From Amycolatopsis sp. (lineage in GTDB: Bacteria > Actinomycetota > Actinomycetes > Mycobacteriales > Pseudonocardiaceae): a stretch of DNA of 64,000 nt. The translations under genes were made by a program, and so were the position numbers. Shown piece by piece: positions 4,649-62,863 of the stretch. Every line of letters begins with the position of its first letter. Position 1 is the stretch's first letter. The stretch spans positions 1-64,000 of the forward strand of contig NZ_JAODNM010000093.1 in the NCBI RefSeq assembly GCF_025464955.1, read 5' to 3'. The notes under the pieces were generated by a model. That model was given only the letters and a program-made list of their open reading frames with translations. It was not told the origin of the DNA and did no database searches.

Positions 4649-4662
4649 GTTAGCGGGCTAAA
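4649..4662. repeat. dispersed palindrome, copy 1 (GG centre)
   Basis: The core is GTTAGCGGGCTAAA, a one-base variant of TTTAGCGGGCTAAA. It lies in the rpoC downstream region. Seven bases further on is CTTAGCATGC (4670-4679), an arrangement repeated exactly at 62760-62790. Confidence 0.85.
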
Positions 4663-4669
4663 TGTAGCG

Positions 4670-4679
4670 CTTAGCATGC
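4670..4679. repeat. companion motif CTTAGCATGC, copy 1
   Basis: CTTAGCATGC follows palindrome copy 1 after a 7-base gap and is followed by a GTAA. The same 10-mer at the same spacing follows copy 17 at 62781-62790. Confidence 0.6.
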
Positions 4680-4748
4680 GCAAGTAATTCGAGGCGCAGG
4701 TGGGGAGCGGTGGTGGTGCGGCGGTGTGGGGGAGCGCCCTGACCTGCG

Positions 4749-4762
4749 TTTAGCGGGCTAAA
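4749..4762. repeat. dispersed palindrome, copy 2 (GG centre)
   Basis: Exact core TTTAGCGGGCTAAA, preceded by CCTGCG and followed by TGTAGCGC. It is intergenic, 190 bases after rpoC. Confidence 0.9.
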
Positions 4763-5253
4763 TGTAGCGCCGCCGGGTGCCGGTGGTTGTGCCCTCGTGC
4801 CGAGGGGCCGGGTCGGAGCGTCCTGCGCTCGGTCGGGTCGCTCTTCGGCGGCAGGCTCCGGGAACTGAGCAACTCGGCCGGCCAGTGGCGCTACAACCAG
4901 GCCACCAACTCACCGGCGAAGGACCAGCGAAGGACAAGGCCCTCAAGGCCGCCGTCGCGGAGATCACACCGAGCTTCAGCCAGTGCCACGCTGCGGCGAC
5001 TGGATGTGCTCCAGCCTCTGCTCGGACTGCGGAGGGTATCTCTAGTTCCGGGAATCCGGTAACGAAACGGTCACGGATTCCGACGCTCGACTCGGCCATT
5101 CAGTCTAGGGATAACTCGCCGTAACGGTTCAGGTCGACACAATCGCGACATGTGGGACGGGCTAACCCATTCGGCCTAGTCAAACGACGCAAACGCGCCC
5201 ACGTCGTGGGAAAGTCACCTAATTGGGTAGCGTCCCATTCTTTGATCACAAGA

Positions 5254-5282
5254 TTGACACTTCAGACGGATCACACGAGTAT
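5254..5282 (+). promoter_or_regulatory. candidate sigma-70-type promoter
   Basis: TTGACA at 5254-5259 is followed after 17 bases by GAGTAT at 5277-5282. The nearest downstream gene is the secreted SBP56-like protein at 5584, which would then have a ~290-base leader. This is inferred from consensus only. Confidence 0.35.
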
Positions 5283-5583
5283 TTCGCACATGCTCGCTCC
5301 GGTTCCCCTTGTGTGGCGTCGCCACGTTGATCTGCGTCAGCAGGCAAGCGCACTCTGTATGGGCTTCTGACCGACCCCTCATCGCCGTCCACTGATTCCG
5401 CGCGCCGCGCGTCGAGTCAGGTCATATCGGTGACTTCTGTCGCACGTCAACGGTTTCCGGACTCCGGACACCGCTAATAAACACGTGCTCCCGCGCTCTC
5501 CCTACATTCTTCCGGCATGCGGAGAAAACAGGGGTGAGAGGTGTGCCTATCCATGGCGCTTTTCCGAGAATCAGGAGTTATGA

Positions 5584-7425
5584 ATGTCAGCCAAATCGCC
5601 TAAGTGGCGAAAAGTGTTCATGGGCGCGATGGCAGGTGTGCTCGCCATTGGGGCCGTGACCTACACGGGCTCGAACACGAGTGCCTACGCCGACGTCCAG
5701 GTCGTCACCGACGCCAAGACGGCGGCCGACGGCAAGCAGTACTGGGTCCAGAACCACCTGGTCACCAAGGATCTGGCGGCCAACGCCCGCGCCGCGGGTG
5801 GCACGCCCAAGAAGTGGCTGCTGGTCTGGGCCGGCGACGAGAACATCGCCGACACCGCCGTCAAGGACATCAAGAACCTGCCGGGTTCGCTCGGCGGCGG
5901 CCTGACGAAAATCAAGAACGCCTTGCCCGGCCCCGATTTCCTCGCGGTCATCGACGCCACGCAGGGTTCCCCGAGCTACGGCAAGGTCGTCAACACCGCG
6001 ACCGTCGGGCCGCTCGTGGAAAACGAGCCGCACCACATGCAGTACGTGTGGCACCAGGGCAACACGGTCTACGCCGGTGCGCTGTTCGCCGCGGCGACCT
6101 ACGCCTTCGACGTCAGCGCGTTGCCACAGCTGAAGCTCAAGGGCATCAGCCTGCCGACCCAGACACTGGGCGGTTCGGTTCCCGACGCGTACTGGGTCCT
6201 CAAGGACGGGACCGCGTACGGCACCTACATGGGTGGCCCGGTCGTACCCGGCCCGTACACCTACAGCGACGGCTCGACCCAGATCGGCAACGGGTTCGCC
6301 GGCAGCCCCGGCGAGGTCGTGCACTTCGACCAGAACGGCCAGGTCCTGTCCCAGTCCCCGGCGGCGACCCCGCAGGGTGACAACGCGAAGCTGTGCGATG
6401 ACCTCCCGCAGCTGGGCAACCCGACCTGCGCCAACCCCCACGGCATCCAGGCCCGCGAAGACCTGAACACCCTGGTCACCAGCGACTACGCCGAGCCGCG
6501 GAACATCATCCTCGATCCGGTCAAGCAGCCGTCGCCGTACCTGCGCCGGCCGACGATCCGCACTTGGGACATCTCCGACCGCAACCACCCGAAGCTGCGT
6601 GCGGTGTCCTACCTCCAGGACGGCCCGCGTGCCGACCCGGCGGACCCGCTGCACTCGGAAAGCCGCGCGGTCATGGAGACCACGGTGACGAACCTGCCCG
6701 GGCACAAGGGCGCGTTCGCCGAGACCATGCAGGGTGGCGCGGTCTACTACACACCGGACATCACGGCTGCCGCTCCGCGGTGGCGTGAGGTGTTCGACGA
6801 CGGTGCCGCGAACAAGGACATCTACGCCGCCAACGACTCCAACGGGGCCAGCTCCAACGGTGGCTGGATCCAGACCAGCCCGGACGACAAGTACCTCTAC
6901 CGCGCCATCGTCGGCAGGCAGAAGGGCACCCTCAGCGCGGACGACCCCGGCACCACCGGTGGCGTCTACGTGCTGGACATCCAGAAGCTCCTGGCCGCCG
7001 GAGTCAACTACAAGGGCTCCATCGACACGAAGCTGAAGGCACAGCAGGGCGGTGGGGACGACCTCCCGACCGTCGTCGGCGCGGCCCCGATCAACGCCGG
7101 CGTACCGGGCGCGGGCCCGCACTGGGGTGCCTATGACAACTGGGACCTCGGCTCCGACGGCTACTACCACGAGACGGACCAGCCGCAGCACCTCGCGGTG
7201 TCGAACTACTTCGTAGCACGCTCCGGACTCGACGGTGACCACAAGGTCAACCTGCTGAACATCGGGACGGACGGGAACGTCGCGGTCGACCAGAACTTCC
7301 GCGACGAGTTCACCGGTCAGGTCGGCATCAACTTCAACCGCAAATCCTGGCCGCACGGGGACTTCGGCAACGCCAAGCCGCACTCCGAGCTGTTCGTGAT
7401 CGCGGACGCCGACATCAGGAAATAA
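5584..7425 (+). CDS. secreted SBP56-like beta-propeller protein
   Basis: A 613-residue protein with a signal peptide: MSAKSPKWRKVFMGAMAGVL, then a hydrophobic stretch and a likely cleavage after SAYA near residue 36. The mature part resembles selenium-binding protein 56/methanethiol oxidase-type propellers. NEPHHMQYVW near residue 140, NPHGIQAREDLNTLVTSDYA near 283-302, and RPTIRTWDISDRNHPKLRAV near 323-342 recall the family's histidine-rich metal site and strand repeats. The cytoplasmic relatives are shorter (about 460 residues) and lack a signal peptide. The ATG has an excellent AGGAG six bases upstream. A large membrane protein gene follows after 77 bases, probably in the same operon. The enzymatic role is not established, and the family call is moderate. 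Confidence 0.6.
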   Translation: MSAKSPKWRKVFMGAMAGVLAIGAVTYTGSNTSAYADVQVVTDAKTAADGKQYWVQNHLVTKDLAANARAAGGTPKKWLLVWAGDENIADTAVKDIKNLPGSLGGGLTKIKNALPGPDFLAVIDATQGSPSYGKVVNTATVGPLVENEPHHMQYVWHQGNTVYAGALFAAATYAFDVSALPQLKLKGISLPTQTLGGSVPDAYWVLKDGTAYGTYMGGPVVPGPYTYSDGSTQIGNGFAGSPGEVVHFDQNGQVLSQSPAATPQGDNAKLCDDLPQLGNPTCANPHGIQAREDLNTLVTSDYAEPRNIILDPVKQPSPYLRRPTIRTWDISDRNHPKLRAVSYLQDGPRADPADPLHSESRAVMETTVTNLPGHKGAFAETMQGGAVYYTPDITAAAPRWREVFDDGAANKDIYAANDSNGASSNGGWIQTSPDDKYLYRAIVGRQKGTLSADDPGTTGGVYVLDIQKLLAAGVNYKGSIDTKLKAQQGGGDDLPTVVGAAPINAGVPGAGPHWGAYDNWDLGSDGYYHETDQPQHLAVSNYFVARSGLDGDHKVNLLNIGTDGNVAVDQNFRDEFTGQVGINFNRKSWPHGDFGNAKPHSELFVIADADIRK

Positions 7426-7502
7426 CCGAACCATCGCGGCCGGGTCGTGAGGGGGCAGGTTCCCCTCGCGACCCGTCCGCGAGCCACTCCGGAAGGTCCC
7501 CG

Positions 7503-9260
7503 ATGGATCACCACGACATGCCGACGACGTCGAGTACGACGTTCGACGCGCTGGCGCTCGTCCTGCGACTGGTGTTGTTGCTGGGCACCGCTTTCGTCGC
7601 CGGGGCCGGGCTGCTCCGGCCGCTGGTCGGCGACCTGCCCCGCAAGCTTGTCCGAACCATCGCCGCGTTGGGCGCGTTGTCCGCGGTACTCGCGATCGTC
7701 TCGGCGCTGACGGTCGACGTCAACGTCGTCGCCGTCGTCATCCACGTTCTGCTGGCGATCGCCATCCCGGTGCTACTGGGCCGTCCATCGCTGGTGCGGT
7801 GGATCTCGGCCGGGCTGATCCTGTTGGTGGTACTGGAAACCGCGCTCGGCAGCTCGGGCATCGACTTCGCCGTCGACACCGTCTACGTCGCGGGCGCAGC
7901 TGTCTGGTTCGGGGTCACAGTGCTGTCTGCCGGGGTCCCGGCGGACCAGTGGCGAAGCACGAACTTCCGGCTCGGCCCGTTGTCGCTGACCCTCGGCGGC
8001 ATGCTTGCGCTGGCGGGCGCCGTGCAGCTCGCTCTGTCCGGCGTCGGGTTCGATCGGCGTCTGTACGAAACGGTTTTCGGCGTCTCGCTGGTCCTGATCA
8101 TCGTGCTACCGGTCGCGGCCACCGTGCTCGCGGGCGTCCTGCTGGGGCGCGCCGAACCAGCTCGGGCGTACCGCTACGGCGCACTCGGCATCGGTCTTGG
8201 CTTCCTCGCGTGGAGCGCGCTCGCCGCCGTACCGCAACCGGCTCCGCTCCCGGTACCCGGCGTCCCGCTGCTGGCTCAGGCTTCCGCCGGTGGCGCGGAC
8301 TTCCCCCTGTTGGTCAGCCCCCAGCGTCCGGGGCAGAACCTGGTGCACTTCCCCGACAGCGCGGGCAAGGACCTGTCTGTCGGAGTCGCCGGTGGCCCGG
8401 TCGCCCAGGCTCTCGCCAGGCCAGGAGCGGAAGGCACCTGGGCGGTCGTCGACCTACCGCACGGGCGCACCGACCTGGTGGTGCACAAGGGAAACGCGCA
8501 GACCTCGGTCGAGGTCGACGCCGGTGACCAGGCCGGACCTCCGATCGCCGACGCGGACGCACCGGAGTGCGCGTCCGCCGCGCTCGGCGGCCTGATCGCC
8601 GAGCGCCGCGAAGTCCTGACGAACTGCCCGTCGGATGCCCTGTCCACCGAGGACAACGCCGCGCTGGTCAAGCTGGTTGCCTTCGTCGCGGGCCGCAAGC
8701 CGTCCGCGATCACGCTGGTGGGGGACAGTTCGCCACGGGGAGCGGCCGCCGCCAAGGTGGTCCGTGACACCGCCGCGCAGGCCGGGCTGCCTGTCCGAGC
8801 CGATGCCACTGCGACCTCGGCGCTTCTCGTCGTCTCCGGCTGGGCCGGCGGTGAGGTGGCGATGACCCGCGCGGCCGAGGCACAGCGCCTCGCGCCGACC
8901 TACCAGTACGGCCTCTACCTGGCACCTTGGCTGCTCAACGGGCCGATCGTCAACGCCGTGTCCAGTTCGTCGGTTCCGCTGCGGTTCGATCCGCGTGAGA
9001 CGTTGGCGATCAGCTACGCGGTCGCCACCAGCGATGCGTTCGGGGGCGAAAGCCCGAGCGTCGGCGGCTTTTATGACTGGCTCGGTGAACAGGGGCGGAC
9101 AGTATTCGGCGACGTGCAGATCTTCGCTTCGGCGCAAGTGAACGCGATGCCGATGTACCCCAGTGAACCGCATTCTCCGGGAATCGAAATGAGCCCCGAC
9201 TACACGGGGCAGTGGGTGCCACAGGGAACCATTGTCCCGGTGAGCGCGCTGCTGCGCTGA
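7503..9260 (+). CDS. polytopic membrane protein with extracytoplasmic domain, function unknown
   Basis: The protein has 585 residues. The N-terminal half holds about eight hydrophobic helices (roughly residues 17-37, 50-70, 74-92, 98-116, 125-145, 158-178, 190-212 and 222-240), a layout loosely like CopD-type membrane proteins. The N-terminus is His-rich (MDHHDM). The C-terminal ~330 residues are soluble and include a segment with two close cysteines (ECAS at about residue 358 and NCPS at about 378), probably outside the membrane. I do not recognise the family. Its position directly behind the secreted propeller protein and ahead of a small secreted protein suggests that all three act at the cell surface together. 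Confidence 0.6.
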   Translation: MDHHDMPTTSSTTFDALALVLRLVLLLGTAFVAGAGLLRPLVGDLPRKLVRTIAALGALSAVLAIVSALTVDVNVVAVVIHVLLAIAIPVLLGRPSLVRWISAGLILLVVLETALGSSGIDFAVDTVYVAGAAVWFGVTVLSAGVPADQWRSTNFRLGPLSLTLGGMLALAGAVQLALSGVGFDRRLYETVFGVSLVLIIVLPVAATVLAGVLLGRAEPARAYRYGALGIGLGFLAWSALAAVPQPAPLPVPGVPLLAQASAGGADFPLLVSPQRPGQNLVHFPDSAGKDLSVGVAGGPVAQALARPGAEGTWAVVDLPHGRTDLVVHKGNAQTSVEVDAGDQAGPPIADADAPECASAALGGLIAERREVLTNCPSDALSTEDNAALVKLVAFVAGRKPSAITLVGDSSPRGAAAAKVVRDTAAQAGLPVRADATATSALLVVSGWAGGEVAMTRAAEAQRLAPTYQYGLYLAPWLLNGPIVNAVSSSSVPLRFDPRETLAISYAVATSDAFGGESPSVGGFYDWLGEQGRTVFGDVQIFASAQVNAMPMYPSEPHSPGIEMSPDYTGQWVPQGTIVPVSALLR

Positions 9261-9555: not shown

Positions 9556-9572
9556 TCGTTGCACAACAACAA

Positions 9573-26451: not shown

Positions 26452-26465
26452 TTTAGCCCGCTAAA
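26452..26465. repeat. dispersed palindrome, copy 3 (CC centre)
   Basis: Core TTTAGCCCGCTAAA with long symmetric arms: GAGGTGCG on the left and CGCACCTC on the right, so 26444-26473 is a 30-bp near-perfect palindrome interrupted only by the central CC. Confidence 0.9.
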
Positions 26466-26493: not shown

Positions 26494-26507
26494 TTTAGCG
26501 GGCTAAA
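26494..26507. repeat. dispersed palindrome, copy 4 (GG centre)
   Basis: Exact core TTTAGCGGGCTAAA, preceded by GAGTGCA and followed by CGTCG. It is 28 bases beyond copy 3 and in opposite orientation, just upstream of the membrane protein gene. Confidence 0.9.
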
Positions 26508-27193: not shown

Positions 27194-27207
27194 TTTAGCG
27201 GGCTAAA
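27194..27207. repeat. dispersed palindrome, copy 5 (GG centre)
   Basis: Exact core, preceded by ACCTGCG and followed by CGTCGCG, 15 bases after the membrane protein stop. The flanks are asymmetric like those of copy 6. Confidence 0.9.
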
Positions 27208-27315: not shown

Positions 27316-27329
27316 TTTAGCGGGCTAAA
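27316..27329. repeat. dispersed palindrome, copy 6 (GG centre)
   Basis: Exact core, preceded by TGCTGCG and followed by CGTCGCG, the same right flank as copy 5. It lies upstream of secY. Confidence 0.9.
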
Positions 27330-30271: not shown

Positions 30272-30285
30272 TTTAGCCCGCTAAA
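30272..30285. repeat. dispersed palindrome, copy 7 (CC centre)
   Basis: Core with symmetric arms: GAGTGCG before and CGCACTC after, so 30265-30292 forms a 28-bp near-perfect palindrome. It starts 20 bases after the map stop. Confidence 0.9.
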
Positions 30286-30313: not shown

Positions 30314-30327
30314 TTTAGCCCGCTAAA
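30314..30327. repeat. dispersed palindrome, copy 8 (CC centre)
   Basis: Exact core, preceded by GCGACG and followed by CGCAGGTCC. Read on the minus strand its flanks match copy 5 (ACCTGCG ... CGTCGC). Confidence 0.9.
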
Positions 30328-34822: not shown

Positions 34823-35683
34823 TTGGACGTCAGCTACGACGGCACGGACTTTTCGGGCTGGGCGCGTCAACCCGGCCTTCGCACGGTCCAGGGTGTCATC
34901 GAGGACGCCCTCACCAAACAGCCGCCCGGTGCCTCCGTCGCCACCCCCGTTGTCGTGGCCGGCCGGACAGACGCCGGAGTCCACGCCGCCGGCCAGGTCC
35001 TCCACGTCGACGTGGTGCCTTTAGCGGGCAAAACGTCGTCGGCGCGCATCGAAGTAGACGCACAGGGGATCCCGGACCTGGGCCGCATGCTGCATCGGTG
35101 GAACGGACTCCTGCCACGCGATGTCAGGGTTCTGGGTGCGCGTGTCGCCGCACCTGGTTTCGATGCTCGTTTCGCGGCCGCGCGTCGGCACTACCGCTAT
35201 CAGGTGTCAGACGCGCCTTGGGGAGTGGATCCACTGCACCGCATCGACACCATCCCGTGGGGAAGGCTGCTGTCGACCGAAAAGATGAACGAGGCATCAT
35301 TGCCTCTGCTGGGGCTTCAGGACTTTGCGGCGTTCTGCAAGCACCGAGCGGGTGCGACGACGATCCGGGAGTTGCAGCGTCTGACCTGGCAGAGAACGGG
35401 CCCACATATGGTCCAAGCGGACGTGTCGGCGGATGCTTTCTGTCACTCGATGGTGCGAAGTCTCGTGGGCGCCTTGCTACTTGTTGGTGACGGTCGGCGT
35501 CAGTCGGACTGGCCGGCGAGGGTGCTGAGCAGTCGTGTCCGGGGGAGCGCAGTGGCTCCTGCGCGCGGACTCACTTTGGTCGGTGTCGACTATCCACCTG
35601 ATTCCGAGCTTGCGGCCCGAGCCATGCACACCCGCAACATTCGAACCGTTACACCGCCGTCGTCGTCAGAGCCGCGCAGTTAG
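34823..35683 (+). CDS. truA: tRNA pseudouridine(38-40) synthase
   Basis: The enzyme isomerises U38-U40 in the anticodon arm of tRNAs. The catalytic Asp is in AGRTDAGVHAAGQVLHVD; the partner region GFDARFAAARRHYRYQVSD and FCHSMVRSLVGALLLVGDG are intact. TTG 34823 is the first standard start and gives 286 residues, but the frame continues upstream as [20 protein letters not shown] to a CTG at 34754 that overlaps the rplQ stop (CTGA). That longer reading gives a family-like N-terminus. A mutated palindrome copy lies within the gene (35020-35033), and the stop lies in another copy (35679-35692). Confidence 0.92.
   Translation: MDVSYDGTDFSGWARQPGLRTVQGVIEDALTKQPPGASVATPVVVAGRTDAGVHAAGQVLHVDVVPLAGKTSSARIEVDAQGIPDLGRMLHRWNGLLPRDVRVLGARVAAPGFDARFAAARRHYRYQVSDAPWGVDPLHRIDTIPWGRLLSTEKMNEASLPLLGLQDFAAFCKHRAGATTIRELQRLTWQRTGPHMVQADVSADAFCHSMVRSLVGALLLVGDGRRQSDWPARVLSSRVRGSAVAPARGLTLVGVDYPPDSELAARAMHTRNIRTVTPPSSSEPRS
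35020..35033. repeat. dispersed palindrome, copy 9, mutated, inside truA
   Basis: TTTAGCGGGCAAAA differs from the consensus by one base (T to A). In the truA frame the consensus would read TTA-GCG-GGC-TAA, a stop; the change gives AAA. It encodes LAGK in an extra loop after HVDVV. Confidence 0.7.
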
Positions 35684-35692
35684 CGGGCTAAC
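35679..35692. repeat. dispersed palindrome, copy 10, carries two stop codons
   Basis: GTTAGCGGGCTAAC with GCGCA/TGCGC arms. The truA TAG is 35681-35683 and the TAG of the convergent DUF559 gene is 35690-35688 on the other strand, so both genes end inside one repeat. Confidence 0.85.
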
Positions 35693-36587
35693 TGCGCTCG
35701 GTCGCCGCCCGAACGCGCTCGACGATCCCGGAGTAGTCGGTCGCGAGCTGGTCCGAGTCGACGATGACGAACGCCCACTCCTCGGCCATCAGTCGCTGCC
35801 TTCGTTCTCGATCGTGGATGACTTGGTCCGGCGTGTTATGCCACCGGCCGTCGTACTCGATCGCGACCTTGCTTTCCTCGATCGCGAGATCGAGTCGACC
35901 GAGGAAGACTCTCTTCTTGCGGACGTTGTGCTGGGGTTTCGGACGGAATCCGCCGACAGTCAAGATTACGCGCAACTCCGATTCGGGTAGCGATTCCGCG
36001 CGCGGGTCTGCGAGCTGCACGGCATGTCGGGCGAGTCGGATCCCTCGATTTCGTCGCCCCCAGACCTGCCGCTCCAAGGCCGACCGACGCACCAGCCCTG
36101 ACCGAAGAAAGACGTCGAGGTCCGGTACTCCGATGCGTAGCCGCCGCACCCAGCCTCGCTTGCGTGGGGACAAGCGAAGTAGCAGGTCTAGTGCAATACG
36201 AACAGGCTTCGCGATCCTGATACCGGCCCATTGGCGGGATTCTTTCGAGACGACCTCTGTCCTTCGGATGTGCATTCCGTCGATGGGGCCGAATCGAGAC
36301 TTTTCCGGTACGACGAACTCCACCGGATCCAGTGGCTGTGCAAGTTCGACGCCCATCACGGTCGCGGCAGATCGGCCCGTCAGTACAGCTTCTTCCGGTG
36401 CGATGAGCGCCGCTCCTCGGCAGCGGAGTTCGTGGGTCACGACGATGTGCGCCGGGGCGTAGACGTCTTGAAACAGCCGCCTAACGGACGGACCGCGAAG
36501 CTGGCCTGCGGTGATCAGACCCGCCTTACGCGCATCGGAACCGCGAAACACGTCCGGAAGATGGTCGAGATCAGGTGTCGTTGACAT
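35688..36587 (-). CDS. DUF559-domain protein, endonuclease-like
   Basis: 299 residues. The C-terminal ~95 residues match the DUF559/very-short-patch-repair-like nuclease fold: ESELRVILTVGGFRPKPQHN, IEYDGRWHNTPDQVIHDRER and RQRLMAEEWAFVIVD, containing the usual Glu...Asp-Gly...His pattern. The N-terminal part (MSTTPDLDHLPDVFRGSDAR, and LITAGQLRG followed by VYAPAHIVVTHELRCRGAAL) is like the winged-helix/AbiEi-type segment often found in front of DUF559. Such proteins are frequent and multicopy in actinobacteria; their role is unclear. It is convergent with truA and sits at the border of the secretion locus. Confidence 0.75.
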   Translation of the reverse strand: MSTTPDLDHLPDVFRGSDARKAGLITAGQLRGPSVRRLFQDVYAPAHIVVTHELRCRGAALIAPEEAVLTGRSAATVMGVELAQPLDPVEFVVPEKSRFGPIDGMHIRRTEVVSKESRQWAGIRIAKPVRIALDLLLRLSPRKRGWVRRLRIGVPDLDVFLRSGLVRRSALERQVWGRRNRGIRLARHAVQLADPRAESLPESELRVILTVGGFRPKPQHNVRKKRVFLGRLDLAIEESKVAIEYDGRWHNTPDQVIHDRERRQRLMAEEWAFVIVDSDQLATDYSGIVERVRAATERS

Positions 36588-36761: not shown

Positions 36762-36775
36762 TTTAGCCCGCTAAA
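36762..36775. repeat. dispersed palindrome, copy 11 (CC centre)
   Basis: Core with GAGTGCG/CGCACTC arms, identical over 28 bases to copy 7 (36755-36782). It lies just beyond the stop of the gene at 36790, in the 202-base gap before the DUF559 gene. Confidence 0.9.
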
Positions 36776-41194: not shown

Positions 41195-42280
41195 ATGTCC
41201 GACGACAACCTGGACGGCCCCGCGACGGAGTCCATCGCGCACCCGCTCTCGCGCTCCGCACCTGGCCCGGCGAGCGCCTTTAGCGGGCTAAATGCACTCG
41301 CCGGGCTCAGCGGGCACTTCGGCTACCTCAGCGAGCTGGCGGGGGAACTCGGGGTGGTCGACGTCGTCGCCACGTACTTCACCCCGATCGCGGGGCGGTG
41401 GGGCGACCTGCACTCGGAGGCAGCACGCTGGCGTGCGGCCGCTGACGTCGCGGGCAGTGTCTCCGCCGGCCTCGGTGAAGGCCTCGGTCGGGTCGACGCC
41501 GAGTGGGCCGGTACCGACGCCGAAGCCTTCGCTGCCTACATCGGCGAGATCGCCGTCGCAGGCGGTGACGCCGAGGACGCGATGAACGCGATGGCGGATG
41601 CACTCTGCGACACCGCGGATGCCCTTCAGCAGATCGTCACCGACCTCTCCGTCGTCCTCGTCGACGCGGCTGAGCTCACCTCTGAATCGGCGATGCTGCC
41701 GGTGGGAGGTGAGCGGCGAGCACGAGCGCAGCTGATCGACGCAGGAGACTCAGGCAAGGCACTCTTTGACGCCGCTCGTGACGTCCTGGAAGCCTTCGGC
41801 CGGTTCTGTAACGGTGTGGACGCGCCGGACGCCGTTTCGCCGAGCATCGAGATCTCCCATCCGTACCCGCGTGCGCAGTTCGTCCTCCACAACGATCGGG
41901 GGAGTTCCATCAGCCCTCAGGCATCGGAAGACAGCGGCTCGACGTCGCCGTCGTCTGCTTCCGGGGACGATCAGGGACACGCGGGGAAGGGTTCGCCTGA
42001 TCAGGGGCGTCAGACGTCGAGCGGAGTGCTTCCGGACGTCAGCGCCCCGTTGGAGCCACCTCCCGTGCCCGATCCGAGTGCCGCAGCGTCGGCTGGCGGA
42101 GGCGGCATGATGATGCCGATGGGCATCCCACTGGGCGGGGGCGGACGCGGGGCCGCCCGCGATCGCAAGCCCCAGTCGCGGCCCGTCACTCAACCGAGTG
42201 AACTGTTCGGCGAGCCGGACAAAGTGGTGGCCCCGGTGATCGGTGAGGACGCCCCACATCCGGACGCCCACAAGCGGTGA
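41195..42280 (+). CDS. probable type VII secretion substrate with WXG100-like helical domain
   Basis: 361 residues. Residues ~45-190 form a long-helix WXG100/PPE-like region (WRAAADVAGSVSAGLGEGLG, VDAEWAGTDAEAFAAYIGEI, with W-A-G as the turn motif). The C-terminal third is Pro/Ser/Gly-rich and low complexity (APLEPPPVPDPSAAASAGGG). A dispersed palindrome (41279-41292) is translated in frame near residue 29 as AFSGLNAL, directly before the helical part. With the preceding EspC-like gene it forms a likely secreted pair. The function is not known. Confidence 0.6.
   Translation: MSDDNLDGPATESIAHPLSRSAPGPASAFSGLNALAGLSGHFGYLSELAGELGVVDVVATYFTPIAGRWGDLHSEAARWRAAADVAGSVSAGLGEGLGRVDAEWAGTDAEAFAAYIGEIAVAGGDAEDAMNAMADALCDTADALQQIVTDLSVVLVDAAELTSESAMLPVGGERRARAQLIDAGDSGKALFDAARDVLEAFGRFCNGVDAPDAVSPSIEISHPYPRAQFVLHNDRGSSISPQASEDSGSTSPSSASGDDQGHAGKGSPDQGRQTSSGVLPDVSAPLEPPPVPDPSAAASAGGGGMMMPMGIPLGGGGRGAARDRKPQSRPVTQPSELFGEPDKVVAPVIGEDAPHPDAHKR
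41279..41292. repeat. dispersed palindrome, copy 12, translated in frame
   Basis: Exact core TTTAGCGGGCTAAA, followed by TGCACTC. It is read as AFSGLNAL by the 361-residue protein, using the only plus-strand frame without a stop. Confidence 0.9.
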
Positions 42281-42302: not shown

Positions 42303-42316
42303 TTTAGCCCGCTAAA
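42303..42316. repeat. dispersed palindrome, copy 13 (CC centre)
   Basis: Exact core, preceded by GAGTGCG and followed by CGCACCTC, a hybrid of the two common arm types. It lies between the convergent substrate and mycosin genes. The mycosin stop (42334-42332) lies in a further half copy, CTAAACG. Confidence 0.9.
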
Positions 42317-49729: not shown

Positions 49730-51664
49730 GTGACGCTGCGGGTAGCGGTGGACTTCGGGACATCGAGCACGTGCGTCGTCGCGTCCGTCAACGGCCGCGA
49801 ACCGCAGGTCGTCGTGATCGACGGGCAGCCGCTGATGTCGTCGGCCGTGTACGCGGCGGCCGACGGCACCCTGTTCGTCGGCCAGGAGGCGGAGCGTCAG
49901 GCGGCGGTCGATCCGTCGCGGTACGAACCGAATCCGAAACGGCGGATCGACGAGGGCGAGCTCCTGCTCGGGGACACCGTCCTGCGTGTCACCGAGGTCG
50001 TGCACGCGGTGCTGCAGCGCGCGGTCACGGAAGCGCGCGCGCTTGCCGGTGGCGCGGAAATCGATCTGCTGGTGCTGACCCACCCTGCCGAGTGGGGTGC
50101 CGTTCGGGCGCGTCTGCTGCGGCAGGCAGCGGGCGGGCTGGCGCGTGAGGTCGCGCTGGTGCCGGAACCGGTGGCGGCGGCGGTGTTCCACGCGGCCACC
50201 TTTTCGGCGTCCGATCTGCCCGCGGACCGCGCCGTCGAGGTCAACGGACGTCCGGGCGAGACGCTGGCCGTGCTCGATCTCGGAGGCGGGACGGTCGATG
50301 TCAGCGTGGTTCGGCGGAGTGCCGGTGTCGACCACACCGGCCGTCCATCGCGTGGTTTCGAGGTGCTGGCGACGCGCGGGGACCCGAGTTTCGGGGGCGC
50401 CGACGTCGACCAGGCGTTGCTGGAGCACGTCGGCTCCCTGGTCGCGTCCGCGGACCCCGACGCCTGGCAGCAGCTCGTCGAAGGCAGGGCGTTGGTCGAC
50501 CGACGGCGTCGGCGGGCGCTTCGCCAGGACGTCCGAGGCGCGAAGGAGACGCTGTCCCGGCACGCGTATACCGATGTGCCGATGCCGCCGCCGTTCGCCG
50601 ATGCGCACGTCACACGTGAGGACCTGGAACGGCTGATCGTCGCGCCGCTCGGGCGGATCGTCGAGCTCGCCCGCGGCGCCATCGAGGACGCGGGGCTCCG
50701 GCCCAAGCAACTCAGCGCGATCTTCCTGGTCGGCGGGTCCAGTCGCATCCCGATGATCTCCCGGCTCGTCTACGAGCGGACCGGAGTCGTCCCAACCACC
50801 CTCGACCAGCCGGAAACCGTAGTCGCCCGTGGCGCGCTCCGCGCTGTCCAAGCCGAGCTGGATCGCTCCGCTGCTGGGGCCCGTGGTGCGTTTAGCGGGC
50901 TAAACGCACCCGCGTCGGCCTCGGTCGGCCAGCGGACCGAGATCGTCCGGCCCGTCTCCGGCTTCGCGCCTGCACGGCAGCCACGGGCCCCGGGCGCGAC
51001 GTTTAGCCCGCTAAACGCACCTCACCGAGGTACCGGGCCCCAGGTAGCCCCCCGACCGGGACCCCAGTGGCGAGGTGGGGAGATGGAGGCGCCGAAGGGG
51101 CCGGTGGCGGCGGAGCGGCCGAAACGCAAGAGCAAGGCGCCGTGGCTCATCGGAGCCGCTGTGCTTCTGGTCGGTGTCGCTGTCGGCGGTGTGCTCATCG
51201 CAGTCAACGGCGATGGCGCCCCAACGGCGGGGCGCACCTTCTCGCAGTACGACTATCACTTCAGCACGCCGTCCGACTGGTCCCAGACCGGCGACAACGC
51301 GGCGGCGAAGCAGGTAGTCGTCCGGCCCGCGGATGCCCAGACCGGGAACGACCTCGTCGTCGCCCAGGAGATCGACATGGACTTCGACGCCACGGCCGAC
51401 CGTCAGCAGCTCGTCGACTTCCTCCAGGGCGTCGCCAAGAAGAGCACTATCTACAGCCAGTTCAACAGCGATACGACGTACGCGGGCAGGCAGGTCATCA
51501 GCTACCTGGAGACCAAGGAAGCCGCCACGGTGGATTGGTACGTCGTGGCGCAGGGCAAGGTCCGGGTGCACGTCGGATGCCAGTACGCCACCGCGTCGCC
51601 GCAACACGATCGGGTGGCAAGTGCCTGCGAGCAGGTAGTCCGCACGCTCGCGATCGGCAACTGA
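49730..51664 (+). CDS. Rv3446c-type type VII secretion-associated protein with Hsp70-like domain
   Basis: 644 residues. Residues 1-375 are an Hsp70/actin-type ATPase: LRVAVDFGTSSTCVVASVNG (phosphate 1), AVLDLGGGTVDVSVVRRS (phosphate 2) and AIFLVGGSSRIPMISRLVYE (adenosine). A linker of ~80 residues follows, then one transmembrane helix (APWLIGAAVLLVGVAVGGVL) and a ~125-residue extracytoplasmic domain (FSQYDYHFSTPSDWSQTGDN ...). This is the arrangement I recall for the Rv3446c family beside ESX-4. No substrate-binding domain of DnaK type is present. Two palindromes are translated in the linker as AFSGLNA and TFSPLNA. Confidence 0.82.
   Translation: MTLRVAVDFGTSSTCVVASVNGREPQVVVIDGQPLMSSAVYAAADGTLFVGQEAERQAAVDPSRYEPNPKRRIDEGELLLGDTVLRVTEVVHAVLQRAVTEARALAGGAEIDLLVLTHPAEWGAVRARLLRQAAGGLAREVALVPEPVAAAVFHAATFSASDLPADRAVEVNGRPGETLAVLDLGGGTVDVSVVRRSAGVDHTGRPSRGFEVLATRGDPSFGGADVDQALLEHVGSLVASADPDAWQQLVEGRALVDRRRRRALRQDVRGAKETLSRHAYTDVPMPPPFADAHVTREDLERLIVAPLGRIVELARGAIEDAGLRPKQLSAIFLVGGSSRIPMISRLVYERTGVVPTTLDQPETVVARGALRAVQAELDRSAAGARGAFSGLNAPASASVGQRTEIVRPVSGFAPARQPRAPGATFSPLNAPHRGTGPQVAPRPGPQWRGGEMEAPKGPVAAERPKRKSKAPWLIGAAVLLVGVAVGGVLIAVNGDGAPTAGRTFSQYDYHFSTPSDWSQTGDNAAAKQVVVRPADAQTGNDLVVAQEIDMDFDATADRQQLVDFLQGVAKKSTIYSQFNSDTTYAGRQVISYLETKEAATVDWYVVAQGKVRVHVGCQYATASPQHDRVASACEQVVRTLAIGN
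50891..50904. repeat. dispersed palindrome, copy 14, translated in frame
   Basis: Exact core with GGTGCG/CGCACC arms, read as GAFSGLNAP in the linker of the Hsp70-like protein. Confidence 0.9.
51002..51015. repeat. dispersed palindrome, copy 15, translated in frame
   Basis: Exact CC-centred core, preceded by GCGACG and followed by CGCACCTC, read as ATFSPLNAP 37 codons after copy 14. Copies 14 and 15 are in opposite orientation and both use the open frame. Confidence 0.9.
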
Positions 51665-56789: not shown

Positions 56790-56803
56790 TTTAGCGGGCT
56801 AAA
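56790..56803. repeat. dispersed palindrome, copy 16 (GG centre)
   Basis: Exact core, preceded by CCGAGTGCA and followed by CGCACTCGG, so the arms extend the symmetry to 32 bases (56781-56812) with one mismatch. It is intergenic between the rpsI terminator and glmM. Confidence 0.9.
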
Positions 56804-58377: not shown

Positions 58378-58683
58378 ATGGCCAGCGGCCACACTGTCGA
58401 TACGGGGAAGATCAACGCGGCCGGCTCGGCGTACAGCAAGGACGGCGCCGACCTCGGGACTGCTGCGGCCAAGGTTGAGACGGGCGTGTCCGCCGGTCAG
58501 ATCGGCAAGGCCTGGTCGGGAACTGTCTCGAGTTACAGCGCTGCCATCAAGAAATACCGCGACACGATGACCACCTTTGGTCAGCATGCATCCGACCTGG
58601 GCGGAAAACTCACCGCCGCCGCCGCCGGTTACGAAAAAGGCGAAGAAGTCAATGCGAGTACTATTTCGAAACAGGATTCGTGA
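58378..58683 (+). CDS. EspC/WXG100-like secreted protein candidate
   Basis: 101 residues from ATG 58378 with GAGGGGGA upstream: MASGHTVDTGKINAAGSAYS, VETGVSAGQIGKAWSGTVSS, then FGQHASDLGGKLTAAAAGYE. The two helices around W-S-G and a C-terminal YEKGEE fit a type VII substrate with a Y-x-x-x-E signal. Its stop overlaps the next gene's GTG. By position between glmM and glmS it matches Rv3440c of M. tuberculosis (103 residues, from memory). Confidence 0.65.
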   Translation: MASGHTVDTGKINAAGSAYSKDGADLGTAAAKVETGVSAGQIGKAWSGTVSSYSAAIKKYRDTMTTFGQHASDLGGKLTAAAAGYEKGEEVNASTISKQDS

Positions 58684-61430
58684 TCATGGCTGACTCAATT
58701 TTCGCGAGTATCCGCAAGGAATCGATCAATAGTTCATTTACGCCGCAGCAGCTTGACCAGATGCGTTCCATGCTCGACGACCCGAATGTCTCCGCGCAGG
58801 ACAGGAACAATTTTCTCTATGTCCTGGCCGATGCCGGCCGGGTTAGTGATGCAGAGATTGACAGGTATGCGCCTCAGGTTGGTGCCGGAGCTGCCGACGT
58901 AAAATCTGGCGGCGATGTAAAATCGAATACTGATCACGCCAAGGCCGCGCTCGGCAATGCCAAGCAAGAGCAGCGTGCCGGGCAGGTCAAGCAGAACCAG
59001 GCTGATCTTCAGGGTGTGCAAAATACCCTGAACCAAGGCGGTTTCTCGAACTCCGACCAGATTATCGATGAAGGCGTCAAAGGGCTCAAGCTTTTTGACG
59101 AGTTCTATCCGCTGTATCAGCAAGCCGGTGGTCCGCCCAGTGGTGTGATGCCGGCTCCTGGGGCGCCGGGCGGGCCGGCACCCGTCAGTGTTCCGGCAGC
59201 ACCTCCTCCGGGGGCTGCTCCCGGGCCGACTCCGGCTACCTACACCCAAACCGGTGTGGACCCGACCAGCCTGCGCGCGGGTATGGACGAGTTTCGCGGT
59301 ATTGACTTCTCTGCTTTTCATGCCGATGCGCAGACGCTGCAGACCGCGGGCAAGGTTGTCGGAGACTCCGTGGACGCGTTGCACACGGCGTGGGCGAATA
59401 CCAGCGATTGGACCGGGGATGCCAAAACAGCGGCGGAGGCGGTTAATAACAGTCTGGTCAAGGGTGCGGGTGCGCTTTCGCAGGCGTTGACCACTGCTCC
59501 GGGTAATATCAGCGGGGCTATCGACAATGTGGTGATGAAGAACGTAGTTCAATTCGCTGAGAGTGTGACAAGTTCTTACGGTGACGGCAAAATAGCCGGC
59601 ATGAGCCCGCAGGATGTTCAAGATACTCTGCAAGCAAAGGAAAATCTCCCGCAGCTTATCGATATGATCAACTCATCCGATGGCGGCTTGCTCTGGGTCG
59701 GTTTGCTTCCTGCTGTAGAGTTCATGAACAAGCAAGGTATAACTTTCCCGTCGGCTGATGTGGGTTCGAAGCAGGATTTTCTTGACGCCGCGACGAAGTT
59801 GCAGACGACCACGGATCAGCACCTTCAGCAGTTCGTGACGGAATACAGCACCAAGGCCAACGCTGTTCATCAGCAAGCCGCTACCTATGTGCAAGCGATC
59901 GACAAAAACTACAGCGCGCTGATTCAGAACCTGTCCACTGCGCTCGATCCGGATCCGTTCGCCGCGGCTACTGGTACGGACTCCGGGCCGACGACGCCTT
60001 CGTCGTCGAGCGGGGGGCCGTCGGGTACGAGCGGCTCCTCCGGCGGCTCGGTCACAGGCGGCGGCATCAGCGCGCCGGCTGCTGCCCCGCCGCCGCCTCC
60101 CGAAGTGAATCCGCCGACGGCTGCCCCGCCCAAGGTTGCGGACGGAATGAACCCGGTCACCGGGCAACCGCTCGAGACCGATCCGGCAACCGGCCAGCCC
60201 TATCCGATCGACCCGAAGACCGGCGCCGCGCTGAAACCCGGCGTAGGTGAGCAGGAAACCGTCAAGGTGCAGAAGGGCGATAACACGATAGCGATGTCTG
60301 AGCCCGACAAGAGCGGCAAAATGGACGTCGCCGTTGACGATGGCTCAGGGCATCACAAGGACTACAAGCTGGACTTCGGTGACGAAAAGACTGCCGATGG
60401 GAAAACCGAGGATCCGGCAGATGCGAAAGCTGACGGTTCCGGGCCGGCCTCTGCTGCGGCCGGCACCGCCGGTGGCAGTTTGCCGGGAGGTAAGGATGGC
60501 TCACCCAGCTCGGACGGGGCGTACAAGCCAGGCGCCGACGGCAAGATTCACATCCAAGATGGTGACTTGAAGATCACGGCTGAACGGCCCAGCGGCGCTG
60601 ATGGTCCGACCGTGGTCACCGTCGACGACGGCAAGGGCGACCCGACCAAGTACACCCTGGACGACGCCAAGGGTTCGGCCGAGGGCAAGGCCGACCCGCT
60701 TGCCGGGTCAGCTACCGGCGGTTTGGGTGTCACCACTAGCACGTCTGGGGCGCATCACGCCGATTCCGGTCCGCAGGGCACCTCCGACAGCGGACACCAG
60801 ACCGACACTGGCCGCACCGGAGTGTCAGGCGCCCACGCCGATACGTCGGATCCCGGTTCGTCGGCGGCACAGGGTTCCGGCACCGGAGACGCCGGTGTCT
60901 CCACTCAACCCTCAGCGCGCAGCTTCGCCACGCCGGGCGGGCTTGACCTCAGCGGCGATCTTGACACCTCGGGCGGTCATGAATCCGCAGGCGGCGACGT
61001 AGCGGGCACGGGCTCGTCCGACTCGACCACCCCTGCCGGAGCAGACGGGATCGCGGCCGTGGTTGCCGCACCCGGAGAGTCTGCGGCGCACAGCGCGCTC
61101 TCGGCGGCTTTCAACCTGGAACCCGGTGCTGAGGTTGGCAGTGAAGCCGCCCTGCCGTCGTCGGCGCATCCGGAGTCCGAGCTCGGCACTGCCCCCGGCG
61201 GGATGGACCCGAACGCCGGTCAGCCAGCGCCCGCGGGCGCGCCTCCCGGAGGCATGAGCGGGATGATGGGCGGTATGGGTGGCGCGGGCGGCGGTGGTGG
61301 TGGCGACCAGCAGCGCAGTTCGAGTGCTTACCGCGTCGACGGTGGCATCTTCGAATCGAGTGGCGCCAAGGGGCGGATCAGTGGGTCGCTCGATGACGAA
61401 GGTGACCGTTCGATCAGCTATGACAGATAG
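58680..61430 (+). CDS. large Ala/Gly/Pro-rich candidate type VII substrate
   Basis: 916 residues from GTG 58680 (or ATG 58686). Residues ~1-140 are helical; ~195-430 resemble a WXG100/PPE-type helical domain (LHTAWANTSDWTGDAKTAAE with W-T-G). The rest is low-complexity: Pro/Ser/Gly linkers, then two related ~55-residue units (about 521-580 and 615-672, both with a V-x-V-DDG-x-G core), a long Ser/Gly/Thr region and a Gly/Met-rich stretch before a basic tail. It has no signal peptide, as expected for type VII export. It is coupled to the EspC-like gene. By position it may correspond to Rv3439c, an alanine/proline-rich protein. Confidence 0.65.
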   Translation: MIMADSIFASIRKESINSSFTPQQLDQMRSMLDDPNVSAQDRNNFLYVLADAGRVSDAEIDRYAPQVGAGAADVKSGGDVKSNTDHAKAALGNAKQEQRAGQVKQNQADLQGVQNTLNQGGFSNSDQIIDEGVKGLKLFDEFYPLYQQAGGPPSGVMPAPGAPGGPAPVSVPAAPPPGAAPGPTPATYTQTGVDPTSLRAGMDEFRGIDFSAFHADAQTLQTAGKVVGDSVDALHTAWANTSDWTGDAKTAAEAVNNSLVKGAGALSQALTTAPGNISGAIDNVVMKNVVQFAESVTSSYGDGKIAGMSPQDVQDTLQAKENLPQLIDMINSSDGGLLWVGLLPAVEFMNKQGITFPSADVGSKQDFLDAATKLQTTTDQHLQQFVTEYSTKANAVHQQAATYVQAIDKNYSALIQNLSTALDPDPFAAATGTDSGPTTPSSSSGGPSGTSGSSGGSVTGGGISAPAAAPPPPPEVNPPTAAPPKVADGMNPVTGQPLETDPATGQPYPIDPKTGAALKPGVGEQETVKVQKGDNTIAMSEPDKSGKMDVAVDDGSGHHKDYKLDFGDEKTADGKTEDPADAKADGSGPASAAAGTAGGSLPGGKDGSPSSDGAYKPGADGKIHIQDGDLKITAERPSGADGPTVVTVDDGKGDPTKYTLDDAKGSAEGKADPLAGSATGGLGVTTSTSGAHHADSGPQGTSDSGHQTDTGRTGVSGAHADTSDPGSSAAQGSGTGDAGVSTQPSARSFATPGGLDLSGDLDTSGGHESAGGDVAGTGSSDSTTPAGADGIAAVVAAPGESAAHSALSAAFNLEPGAEVGSEAALPSSAHPESELGTAPGGMDPNAGQPAPAGAPPGGMSGMMGGMGGAGGGGGGDQQRSSSAYRVDGGIFESSGAKGRISGSLDDEGDRSISYDR

Positions 61431-61455
61431 CCGTTCAGCTGAGGGGAAGTGAACC

Positions 61456-61839
61456 ATGACCGGCGGTCTCGATCCGGTACTGGCGGACCAACTGGCCCAG
61501 ACTCAGGCCGAGGGTAGGGCGAGGTCGGCTGAGATCACTGAACACGTACGGGCAACTTCCCAGCGGATCGCCGCGGAGTCGCAGCGGCTGAAGGAAGAGA
61601 ACGAGGCGTTCTCGAAGGACCTTGCGAGGCGTGCCGAGGAGCGTGCTGAGGCTGCCAAGAATCAGTGGGCACGCACCGACCAGAAGGACACCACGTACAA
61701 CCTGGGTGGCGCTGAGGCCGAAGAGGACGCGCCGGAACAACTGGCCGTGCCGCAGGCCGAAGCGACCACGCGTGGGCGTCATGCTCGAAGGCCCGTCGAA
61801 GATGACGACGACTACTCCGACCACAACTGGTTGGGCTGA
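61456..61839 (+). CDS. coiled-coil protein, unknown, last gene of the substrate operon
   Basis: 127 residues. Residues ~18-75 form a charged coiled coil (AEGRARSAEITEHVRATSQR, IAAESQRLKEENEAFSKDLA); the C-terminus is acidic with EDDDDYSDHNWLG at the end. GAGGGGAAG lies before the ATG. The gene is 25 bases after the 916-residue gene, and a perfect 17-bp hairpin follows. No family is recognised; an export chaperone is one possibility. Confidence 0.55.
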   Translation: MTGGLDPVLADQLAQTQAEGRARSAEITEHVRATSQRIAAESQRLKEENEAFSKDLARRAEERAEAAKNQWARTDQKDTTYNLGGAEAEEDAPEQLAVPQAEATTRGRHARRPVEDDDDYSDHNWLG

Positions 61840-61841
61840 GC

Positions 61842-61881
61842 CAACGAGAGTGAGGGGCTCGCGGGCCCCTCACTCTCGTTG
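61842..61881. terminator. bidirectional hairpin terminator
   Basis: CAACGAGAGTGAGGGGC (61842-61858) pairs perfectly with 61865-61881, 17 bp with a 6-base loop, between convergent genes. Confidence 0.9.
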
Positions 61882-61886
61882 ATGTG

Positions 61887-62702
61887 TCAGACCAGGGTTT
61901 TCTGCTCATCCAGGTCGATGGCCGCTTTCTTGAAGTCCGCCTCCAGCAGCGGGCGGTACTTCTGCGTGCCGGTCAGGTGCGTCAGGAAGAACGCGGTGAA
62001 CAACGCTTGGACCAGCCGTTGCGTGCCGCGATGCGGTTTGCCCTGGAGAAGCAGTTGGCTCCAGTGCCTGCTCTCCGTCACCGCGAGGTGGGAGGACTTG
62101 CGGACTGTCCGGAGCTGCACCGGACCTGCCCAAGCCTTCGCGATGGCTTCGGCGTGGCCGACCGCGGGGGCGACGAGGTCGTCCTCTGCGGCGAGGTGGA
62201 GCCCGGGCACGCTGATCTCGCGAGCGGCGTCGCTGGCCGGCGGGAGGGTCTGAGCGGCGGCGAACGTCGCGACCGCGCGCACGTCCGGGCCGTCGGTGGA
62301 CGCTGCGGCGAGGACGGCGGCGCCGCCGCCGATCGAATGCCCGGCGAGGCCGAGGCGGTCGGGGTCGACGCTGATGCCGTTAGGGCCAAGCCGGACGCCG
62401 GTGACTACGTCGAGTGTGCTCAGCAAGTCGGCGGCGAAGAGGCGATGCGACGGAAGCGGGCCGCGCTGGGTGGCGGGCGCCGCGGCGACGATGCCCCAGC
62501 TCGCGAGGTGGCGGAGGAGGTCGCGGTAGAGCCCGGGCGGCTGGAGCCAACCGTGGCCGAAGGCGATCGCCGGCAAGCCGAGGCCGGCGCGCGGCGTGAA
62601 CACGACGCCCGGGAGTCCGACGAGGGCGAGGTCGCCGCGGAGCACGTCGTGCGGCCCGGGGTGGGAGAGCTCCGTGAGCAACTCCTTGGGCTTGCTGGCC
62701 AT
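61887..62702 (-). CDS. alpha/beta hydrolase, dienelactone hydrolase/chlorophyllase-like
   Basis: 271 residues. The nucleophile elbow is LGLAGHSIGGGAAVLA (Ser in GHSIGG); AFGHGWLQPPGLYRDLLRHL is the oxyanion region, AAEDDLVAP supplies the Asp and RKSSHLAVTES the His. No signal peptide is present, so it is cytosolic. The substrate is unknown. It faces the opposite way to its neighbours. From memory, Rv3438, at the same place in M. tuberculosis, is also inverted and of similar size. Confidence 0.8.
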   Translation of the reverse strand: MASKPKELLTELSHPGPHDVLRGDLALVGLPGVVFTPRAGLGLPAIAFGHGWLQPPGLYRDLLRHLASWGIVAAAPATQRGPLPSHRLFAADLLSTLDVVTGVRLGPNGISVDPDRLGLAGHSIGGGAAVLAAASTDGPDVRAVATFAAAQTLPPASDAAREISVPGLHLAAEDDLVAPAVGHAEAIAKAWAGPVQLRTVRKSSHLAVTESRHWSQLLLQGKPHRGTQRLVQALFTAFFLTHLTGTQKYRPLLEADFKKAAIDLDEQKTLV

Positions 62703-62759
62703 GGCCGTGACCTTACTGCCAGCGCGCCCGCGCAGCCCGTCGCCGCCCCGCCGAGTGCA

Positions 62760-62773
62760 GTTAGCGGGCTAAA
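62760..62773. repeat. dispersed palindrome, copy 17 (GG centre)
   Basis: GTTAGCGGGCTAAA, the same first-base variant as copy 1, preceded by GAGTGCA. Seven bases later comes CTTAGCATGC, exactly as at copy 1. Confidence 0.88.
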
Positions 62774-62780
62774 CGCGCTC

Positions 62781-62790
62781 CTTAGCATGC
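62781..62790. repeat. companion motif CTTAGCATGC, copy 2
   Basis: Identical 10-mer at the same 7-base distance as at 4670-4679; followed by CTACGTAA. Confidence 0.6.
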
Positions 62791-62849
62791 CTACGTAAAT
62801 GGGGGGAGTGTGGGCGCGGGGTGGGGTCGGTAGGAGCCGGGCGAGTGCA

Positions 62850-62863
62850 GTTAGCCCGCTAAA
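62850..62863. repeat. dispersed palindrome, copy 18 (CC centre)
   Basis: GTTAGCCCGCTAAA, preceded by GAGTGCA and followed by CGCACTT. It lies 77 bases after copy 17 in opposite orientation, in the divergent hydrolase-glmS gap. Confidence 0.88.

Follow-up and report, generated by a model that had tools for sequence, protein, structure and literature searches.

A regional array of 14-bp near-palindromes in Amycolatopsis and its association with a truA-linked nuclease-like gene

Why does a 14-bp word recur 18 times in one stretch of an actinomycete chromosome? The stretch is a window of 64,000 nucleotides from an Amycolatopsis genome (G000; 9,201,453 bases in 182 contigs), namely the first 64 kb of contig C90, and the word is a near-palindromic element with the exact form TTTAGC-SS-GCTAAA. 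A sequence-only reading of the window had listed 18 copies, and our recount found all of them at the positions it gave, with GG at the centre of 11 and CC at the centre of seven on the plus strand, as it had stated. Its number of exact copies was corrected from 14 to 13, and five rather than four copies carry one or two differences (4649, 35020, 35679, 62760, and 62850). A chance origin, which it had dismissed, is indeed excluded: the dyad is approximately 18,600 times above the base-composition expectation on the 178-kb contig, and a reversed-pattern control gave 0 exact matches genome-wide. With moderate confidence we propose that the palindromes and a 299-residue nuclease-like protein encoded next to truA are one system, in which the array would be maintained, and probably propagated, in the neighbourhood of the gene for this protein.

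The exact 14-mer is present 21 times in G000, 20 times on C90 and once on C127. When degenerate ends and one mismatch were allowed, 41 places were found versus 6 for the control, and 35 of the 41 were on C90, from 4,649 to 133,815. The single-contig genome G008 (9,225,930 bases) contains 65 exact copies, 60 of them within 0.42 Mb (4.9987-5.4140 Mb), the remaining ones being located at 3.770 Mb (four) and 4.155 Mb (one). Ten consecutive samples inside this array yielded 1-7 exact copies each, and 20 of 20 samples of 20 kb elsewhere in G008 yielded neither exact nor generalised copies (the generalised patterns also catch a few coding look-alikes). In G019, 31 of 35 exact copies were within the 380-kb stretch examined. 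Regarding enrichment beyond the window, which the sequence-only reading had made its touchstone, the outcome is mixed: the word is not genome-wide, yet it reaches 133.8 kb and occurs in 14 of the 23 other genomes of the genus. An uptake sequence and an ordinary restriction site, two of the roles offered earlier, would both be expected to spread genome-wide, and both are disfavoured because the word does not (counts in G000 and G008, and the G008 samples). Of those roles, recognition by a protein agrees best with the data, and the nuclease-like protein linked to the array is near in kind to the restriction protein that had been guessed at.

Of the genomes of the genus, 15 of 24 (G000 included) have the exact word; across the family it is carried by 31 of 297 genomes, in 8 of 46 genera, and among other families of the order by 1 of 16 genomes. 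Among the matches listed, clusters lie near secY on the same contig in G006, G007, G008, G011, G013, G014, G016, G019, and G021; G006 has further copies, on four other contigs. Beyond the genus, generalised elements stand close together near secY in G053 (9 per 20 kb), G056 (8), G095 (8), G062 (7), and G099 (11 in 40 kb), counts that include some coding look-alikes. The secY windows hold 2/12 (G053), 6/26 (G056), 6/26 (G095), 5/15 (G062), and 8/19 (G099) of the narrower-pattern matches of these genomes, and 1/127 in G047. The latter genome has 117 exact copies, of which those listed are strung over the first 1.04 Mb of its first contig. The copies read there (contig C1, L196-L198) have arms GCGTAC/GTACGC or close to it, and they are possibly an unrelated or runaway family. 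Other lineages are element-free, and whole clades live without the array. These data demonstrate a real, old, regional site array.

Which gene, if any, accompanies it? Of 30 element-bearing loci, 29 have the nuclease-like gene near truA, the exception being G047; of 50 element-free loci, 1 has it, that of Saccharopolyspora indica. Counted by distinct assemblies, the element-bearing figure is 28 of 29 (G095 and L140 are one assembly, which gives one duplicate row in each locus count); the association has a Fisher P of 1.7e-19, kinship not being corrected for. Of 66 stop-to-stop open reading frames (ORFs) in 26.4-39.0 kb, each 90 aa or longer, only this gene and two overlapping ORFs were found in at least 27 of the 30 and at most 1 of the 50, and many housekeeping ORFs of the same screen were present in all 80 loci. 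The gap from truA to the next gene measures 1,173 bp (median of 29 loci) where the nuclease-like gene is present and 99 bp (median of 44 loci) where it is absent. In 24 of 29 loci an element lies no more than 400 bp upstream of the nuclease-like gene, and 15 of the 29 have one at its 3' end. A DUF559 relative was matched in all five element-bearing regions compared. On a tree of 9 proteins and 85 taxa, from one FastTree run, the gene needs 7 changes and the elements 6, and 1 of 74 taxa disagrees. Our gene calls came from a home-made gene finder, and ORF 35688-36587 was not among them. Two other candidate trackers were rejected. A DUF5336 gene, searched from G000, is present in element-free G003 and G012, and a retron-like reverse transcriptase is missing at its usual spot in element-bearing G004 and G013. 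That reverse transcriptase (PADLOC RT_other, 541-546 bits; G000 C90:144119-145162, G008 5304033-5305076) lies beside an MfpA-like pentapeptide-repeat gene; it is syntenic in G000, G008, G019, G014, and G020, and missing there in G003 as well as in G004 and G013.

The C-terminal third of the 299-aa protein resembled the Pfam families REase_MTES_1575 (E 4.4e-7) and DUF559 (E 0.0065). A profile of 21 protein copies matched PDB 3r3p ('Mobile intron protein', which we take to be I-Bth0305I) with an E value of 0.0047, and the G004 copy matched the Vsr model with an E value of 0.023. Residues E198, E202, D233, E244, H250, and D259, among others, are invariant in the 21 sequences, a Saccharopolyspora relative included, and D246 is nearly so; we infer that these acids and the histidine may form an EDxHD catalytic pattern. 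The protein has an extra N-terminal part of approximately 190 residues. A second, shorter DUF559-type gene (168 aa) was observed near the array edge in G008 (5402001-5402507, L224), and its product shares 28% identity with the truA-linked protein.

The array has the truA-linked gene at its centre. In counts per 50 kb, with the position of the gene marked by a slash, elements thin out to both sides in each of three genomes: 3, 10, 21 / 24, 18, 14, 6 in G008, 7, 6, 12, 22 / 14, 4 in G019, and 7, 31 / 21 in G004. The median offset from the gene is 36 kb in G008, 31 in G019, 9 in G004, 19 in G013, and 27 in G000, all below one standard deviation (SD; 79, 80, 34, 28, and 34 kb, respectively). These values are limited by the stretch examined, most of all in G000 and G013.

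Its places are also conserved. Orthologous gaps were occupied in both genomes of a pair more often than in a null of 5,000 length-weighted draws: 12 versus 6.7 (G000-G019), 14 versus 5.9 (G000-G008), 23 versus 8.8 (G008-G019), 7 versus 2.4 (G000-G004), 11 versus 5.0 (G000-G013), 9 versus 4.3 (G008-G004), 11 versus 6.7 (G008-G013), and 9 versus 3.9 (G019-G004), with P at most 0.0012 in all these pairs. In-gene elements recur in orthologues of an HSP70-like gene, an ESX-region gene, and truA. Elements otherwise sit at medians of 60-100 bp behind stop codons, a position that, together with the near-palindromic core, would suit regulator operators or RNA hairpins acting as terminators. We consider this explanation very unlikely, since orientation to transcription is even (51 along, 52 against), a regulon restricted to one region would be odd, and divergent gaps are under their length share of elements in G008, G019, G004, and G013, though not in G000 (shares compared without a statistical test).

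One codon position of truA reads CCT TTA GCG GGC [AAA/GAA] ACG in most element-bearing species, and among 80 sequences with a truA match the motif was present in 26 of 28 with elements elsewhere in the stretch versus 2 of 52 without. It is absent in element-bearing G047 and G056, and its two element-free carriers, A. orientalis 40040 and A. regifaucium, both fall within the element-bearing group. The copy keeps a TTA codon, which is rare (16 of 12,628 Leu codons in the region of G008 and 17 of 10,661 in that of G019). The truA loop is about as long in sequences that lack the word, and the copy brings no 30-bp insertion. In six loci, two of them one assembly, Phe (TTT or TTC) occupies the position, and the same half-site form is found in other copies of the locus, though not as the commonest form in every one of these loci.

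Regional confinement, conserved places, and a truA copy retained despite codon bias would also be expected if the sites marked a chromosome domain, as matS does, for some other protein to read, with the nuclease gene travelling by linkage or using the array. Against this stand the 29 of 30 loci in which the linked gene tracks the array, and the clades that live without any array. The distance from the array to parB also varies, being approximately 1.8 Mb in G019 versus 0.65-0.85 Mb in most relatives (both on one contig). Canonical ParB was rejected as the reader: its helix-turn-helix stretch RIGRSRPVITNTIRLL is identical in all 12 genomes compared, whether or not they have sites. Ten other columns of the ParB alignment divide the site-bearing from the site-free genomes, a split that kinship would also produce. 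Overall we regard a domain-marking array as unlikely.

Half-sites and arms, compared in elements oriented by their GG centre, are asymmetric and species-specific (where the pattern fixes GCGGGC, the centre is not independent evidence). The dialect of G008 and G019 is [ACCTGCG, GAGCGAC or GATCGCG]-TTTAGCGGGCTAA[A/T]-CGCGATCCGG, that of G000 GAGTGCR-TTTAGCGGGCTAAA-CGCACTC or TGTAGCG, that of G013 GGTGCG-TTTAGCGGGCAAAC-CGCACCC, and that of G004 ACCTGC-TTCTGCGGGCAAAA-GCAGGT. G004 has no exact copy, yet among its listed TTYWGCSSGCWRAA places only five are outside 9.35-9.54 Mb around its secY. The earlier suggestion that the dyad extends into the arms held in part: arms are species-specific, and within-copy arm pairing was above that of permuted arms in G000 (0/2,000) and G004 (P 0.008), barely so in G019 (0.04, weak), and not in G008 (0.51) or G013 (0.73). 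Arm and core likeness showed no consistent drop with distance beyond 150 bp. Neighbouring copies prefer certain distances: 56 bp (12 pairs), 57 (3), and also 36-37 and 46-47 in G008; 27 (6) in G004; 42-43 (9) and 32 (5) in G013; and 42-43 (4) in G000. Tandem copying occurred in places (G019 8668882-8668970), and G000 has composite copies. A region-by-region dialect was ruled out as an account of the array, as no other dense regional palindrome appeared in 20 samples of 20 kb along G008, and the other families are dispersed among the matches listed. One of these, GAAAGYSRCTTTC (a GAAAG-CCA-CTTTC near-palindrome), has 377 copies in G008, with listed places from 33 kb to 3.0 Mb; it often forms inverted pairs 30 bp apart (e.g. 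165732-165774) and is a REP-like family of the genus. Another, TGATCACGCGAG, has 73 forward and 75 reverse matches in G008 (listed places 0.79 to 6.8 Mb), and its words form 21-bp tandem and inverted arrays, e.g. at 2979127-2979201 and 5115425-5115537.

Pairs, clusters, shared arms, and a preference for gene ends are also what the earlier label 'REP-like' captures, and in form it is apt. REPs are mostly genome-wide, with one clustered exception, according to passages of PMC3733652, and in this respect the label fails. A REP-like repeat multiplied by transposase or gene conversion, with the clustering and the company of the gene being history, nevertheless draws on further observations. Several G000 copies have common longer flanks (TGTAGCGCTTAGCATGCCTAAG), therefore more than the core was copied. 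Dispersed palindrome families exist in the same genus, and G047 has many copies. The G004 word has no stop codon in any frame (9.40-9.54 Mb), and 15 of 54 of its copies fall in conserved coding segments, more than the 20 of 215 counted across four other genomes (P 0.001). Conversely, the truA copy brings no insertion, arm pairing is at the permuted level in G008 and G013, and the inner spacers of 56-bp pairs, which occur in several orientations, are barely more alike than shuffled ones (0.455 versus 0.434, SD 0.010). We judge this origin improbable. Two local repeats were noted in addition: copies on C33 and C154 of G000 (L194 9974-10040; L195 9973-10039) are 97% alike over 67 bp with flank TGTAGCGCTTAGCATGCCTAAG, forming a composite repeat, and G056 C5 285017-285201 has six copies, mostly with a 32-bp period and related spacers, forming a small tandem array.

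The IncP-1 KorB operator has the same half-sites, TTTAGC/GCTAAA, and the published O_B oligonucleotide, in passages of PMC11790492, contains TTTTAGCGGCTAAAA, which brings KorB/ParB-type clamp sites into consideration. G004 uses other half-sites, however, and each of 24 genomes has one strong ParB_N match (with weak second ones in G012, G013, and G014), no ParB_N paralogue tracking the sites in these 24; PF08535 was not searched. Clamp sites are therefore extremely unlikely, and the half-site identity is probably by chance. A plasmid with a KorB-like repressor was dropped because of the single strong ParB_N match per genome and the chromosomal genes that Pfam identifies in the window: rpoC, EF-G, EF-Tu, L3, SecY, a methionine aminopeptidase-type protein, RpoA, and L17, with EccB/EccC/EccD/EccE, a mycosin-like protease, an HSP70-like gene, and a GlmM-like gene. 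The closest named relatives of its adenylate kinase gene are mostly Amycolatopsis (best 87% identity). The DNA of the window belongs to an Amycolatopsis chromosome, not to a plasmid, and represents its ribosomal-protein/ESX-4 region.

We return to the proposal that nuclease-like protein and sites are one system. Regional confinement centred on the gene, joint presence and absence, species dialects, conserved places, and the word retained in truA support it at the level of sequence, and because of this centring, joint loss, dialects, and kept coding word, a protein acting on the word near its own gene would be the simplest account. The truA-linked protein is likely the reader or maintainer of the elements. 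It would bind an element as a dimer on the two half-sites, with neighbouring copies at set distances, and may nick or cut like its remote relatives Vsr and I-Bth0305I. Nuclease-guided repair could then convert near-matching sequence into the word, and if the protein acts mostly near its own gene, copies would thin with distance, a local molecular drive. Such drive, rather than a pure host function, has in our estimate not quite an even chance; a possible host use would be organising, or relieving stress in, a highly expressed domain. Still more tentatively, a chromosomal Vsr/EDxHD-like nuclease may, by biased repair, build up and sustain dozens of copies of its recognition word in the vicinity of its gene, word and enzyme co-evolving as dialects and vanishing together, and parts of truA and stop codons being written by the word.

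Several observations weigh against this proposal. The G000 protein scores 30.3 bits where the curated Pfam cut-off is 38.2, and 16.8 bits where it is 20.6, and the Vsr and 3r3p matches are weak. G047 has no such gene beside truA, even in a wider stretch, G056 has gene and elements without the truA copy, and Saccharopolyspora indica has a 41% relative near truA with no elements in the 20 kb examined. Outlier copies in G008 lie as far as 1.4 Mb off, and in all five genomes measured the centre of the array is displaced from the gene, towards the side without the ribosomal operons, which themselves offer few gaps. The longer flanks of G000 copies count here too. Association of gene and elements is not action, and because the gene adjoins truA in all cases, part of the agreement is shared descent. 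Homing enzymes, moreover, normally insert their own gene and not short words. If the proposal is true, a nuclease reshapes hundreds of kb around its gene, intergenic and coding, without inserting itself, which would explain a regional repeat family outside every current class; the dialects and their matching proteins would be a ready set for learning how such nucleases choose sites. Among the open-access listings searched, we found neither the 14-mer nor such a nuclease-site system described.

Table 1. Elements and the nuclease-like gene in the 64-kb window.
Feature	Position	Strand	Context
Element GTTAGCGGGCTAAA	4649..4662	+	Downstream of rpoC; same gap occupied in G019 (8859699)
Element, exact	4749..4762	+	Downstream of rpoC
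Element, exact	26452..26465	-	rplO-secY gap; 42-bp pair with copy at 26494
Element, exact	26494..26507	+	rplO-secY gap
Element, exact	27194..27207	+	Upstream of secY
Element, exact	27316..27329	+	Upstream of secY
Element, exact	30272..30285	-	map-infA gap; 42-bp pair with copy at 30314; gap also occupied in G019
Element, exact	30314..30327	-	map-infA gap
Element TTTAGCGGGCAAAA	35020..35033	+	In frame within truA (CCT TTA GCG GGC AAA ACG)
Element GTTAGCGGGCTAAC	35679..35692	+	Provides TAG stops of truA (+) and nuclease-like gene (-)
Nuclease-like gene, 299 aa	35688..36587	-	Convergent with truA; C-terminal REase_MTES_1575/DUF559-type domain, remote to Vsr and I-Bth0305I
Element, exact	36762..36775	-	About 175 bp upstream of start of nuclease-like gene
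Element, exact	41279..41292	+	Inside predicted ESX-region ORF 41195-42280; orthologues in G008 and G004 carry one too
Element, exact	42303..42316	-	Convergent gap ahead of mycosin-like S8 gene
Element, exact	50891..50904	+	Inside HSP70-like ORF 49730-51664; orthologues in G019, G008, and G004 also with elements
Element, exact	51002..51015	-	Inside HSP70-like ORF 49730-51664
Element, exact	56790..56803	+	rpsI-glmM gap, following a hairpin with T run; G019, G008, and G013 have an element in this gap too, as does G004 in variant form
Element GTTAGCGGGCTAAA	62760..62773	+	Ahead of 63001-64794
Element GTTAGCCCGCTAAA	62850..62863	-	Ahead of 63001-64794

Three further features of the region were recorded. 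Beside glmM, a lower-GC stretch of the window (58378-61430) holds a WXG100/EspC-like gene of 101 aa and, after it, a 916-aa ORF that has no Pfam match. The rplO-secY gap of element-free G012 (about 399.3-400.0 kb) is filled by other repeated words, GTGAGGGGCTCCTTGAGGGAAT and GACGCACCCAATG. A second SecY-like gene, 38-41% identical, is present in eight genomes of the genus and, in two pieces, in a ninth (G007).

How does the array compare with known systems? In layout it is nearest to matS/MatP, where a 13-bp palindrome recurs 23 times within 800 kb of the chromosome (passages of PMC3330122), and such confinement to one region is found here; the array differs in phylum and region, in being denser, in its dialects, and in the linked nuclease-like gene (MatP was not searched). 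The KorB operator O_B shares its half-sites, in passages of PMC11790492, but the two-base centre here has one more central base. Like parS, the element is an even-length near-palindrome, but canonical parS adjoins parB, and the element is not of the GTTTCACGTGAAAC type that ParB reads.

Passages of PMC12907096 describe DUF559 as a frequent domain of Vsr-like endonucleases. The C-terminal domain has a remote similarity to these enzymes, from which the protein differs in its long N-terminal part and in the dozens of dedicated 14-bp sites around its gene. The family of the EDxHD enzyme I-Bth0305I dimerises on a target of nearly 60 bp (passages of PMC3943268), in the range of the 56-bp pairs, and the 3r3p profile match is a further, weak likeness. 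Unlike EDxHD homing endonucleases, the present gene is not in an intron or intein, has many sites and not one, and shows vertical co-loss.

Nearest in logic is REP/RAYT (TnpA-REP), which likewise combines short palindromic repeats in pairs, in clusters, and at gene ends with one nuclease-type protein. The elements have no constant GTAG/CGTC tag as REPs do: in G000 a minority of copies show GTAG or CGTC after the core, the dominant arms being CGCGATC, CGCACTC, and GCAGGT. The genome-wide spread of REPs is not seen, with G047 as the exception among the matches listed. The protein here is Vsr/EDxHD-like and not a Y1 transposase (RAYT was not searched), and, unlike REP/RAYT, this array is confined around its gene and keeps its word inside truA.

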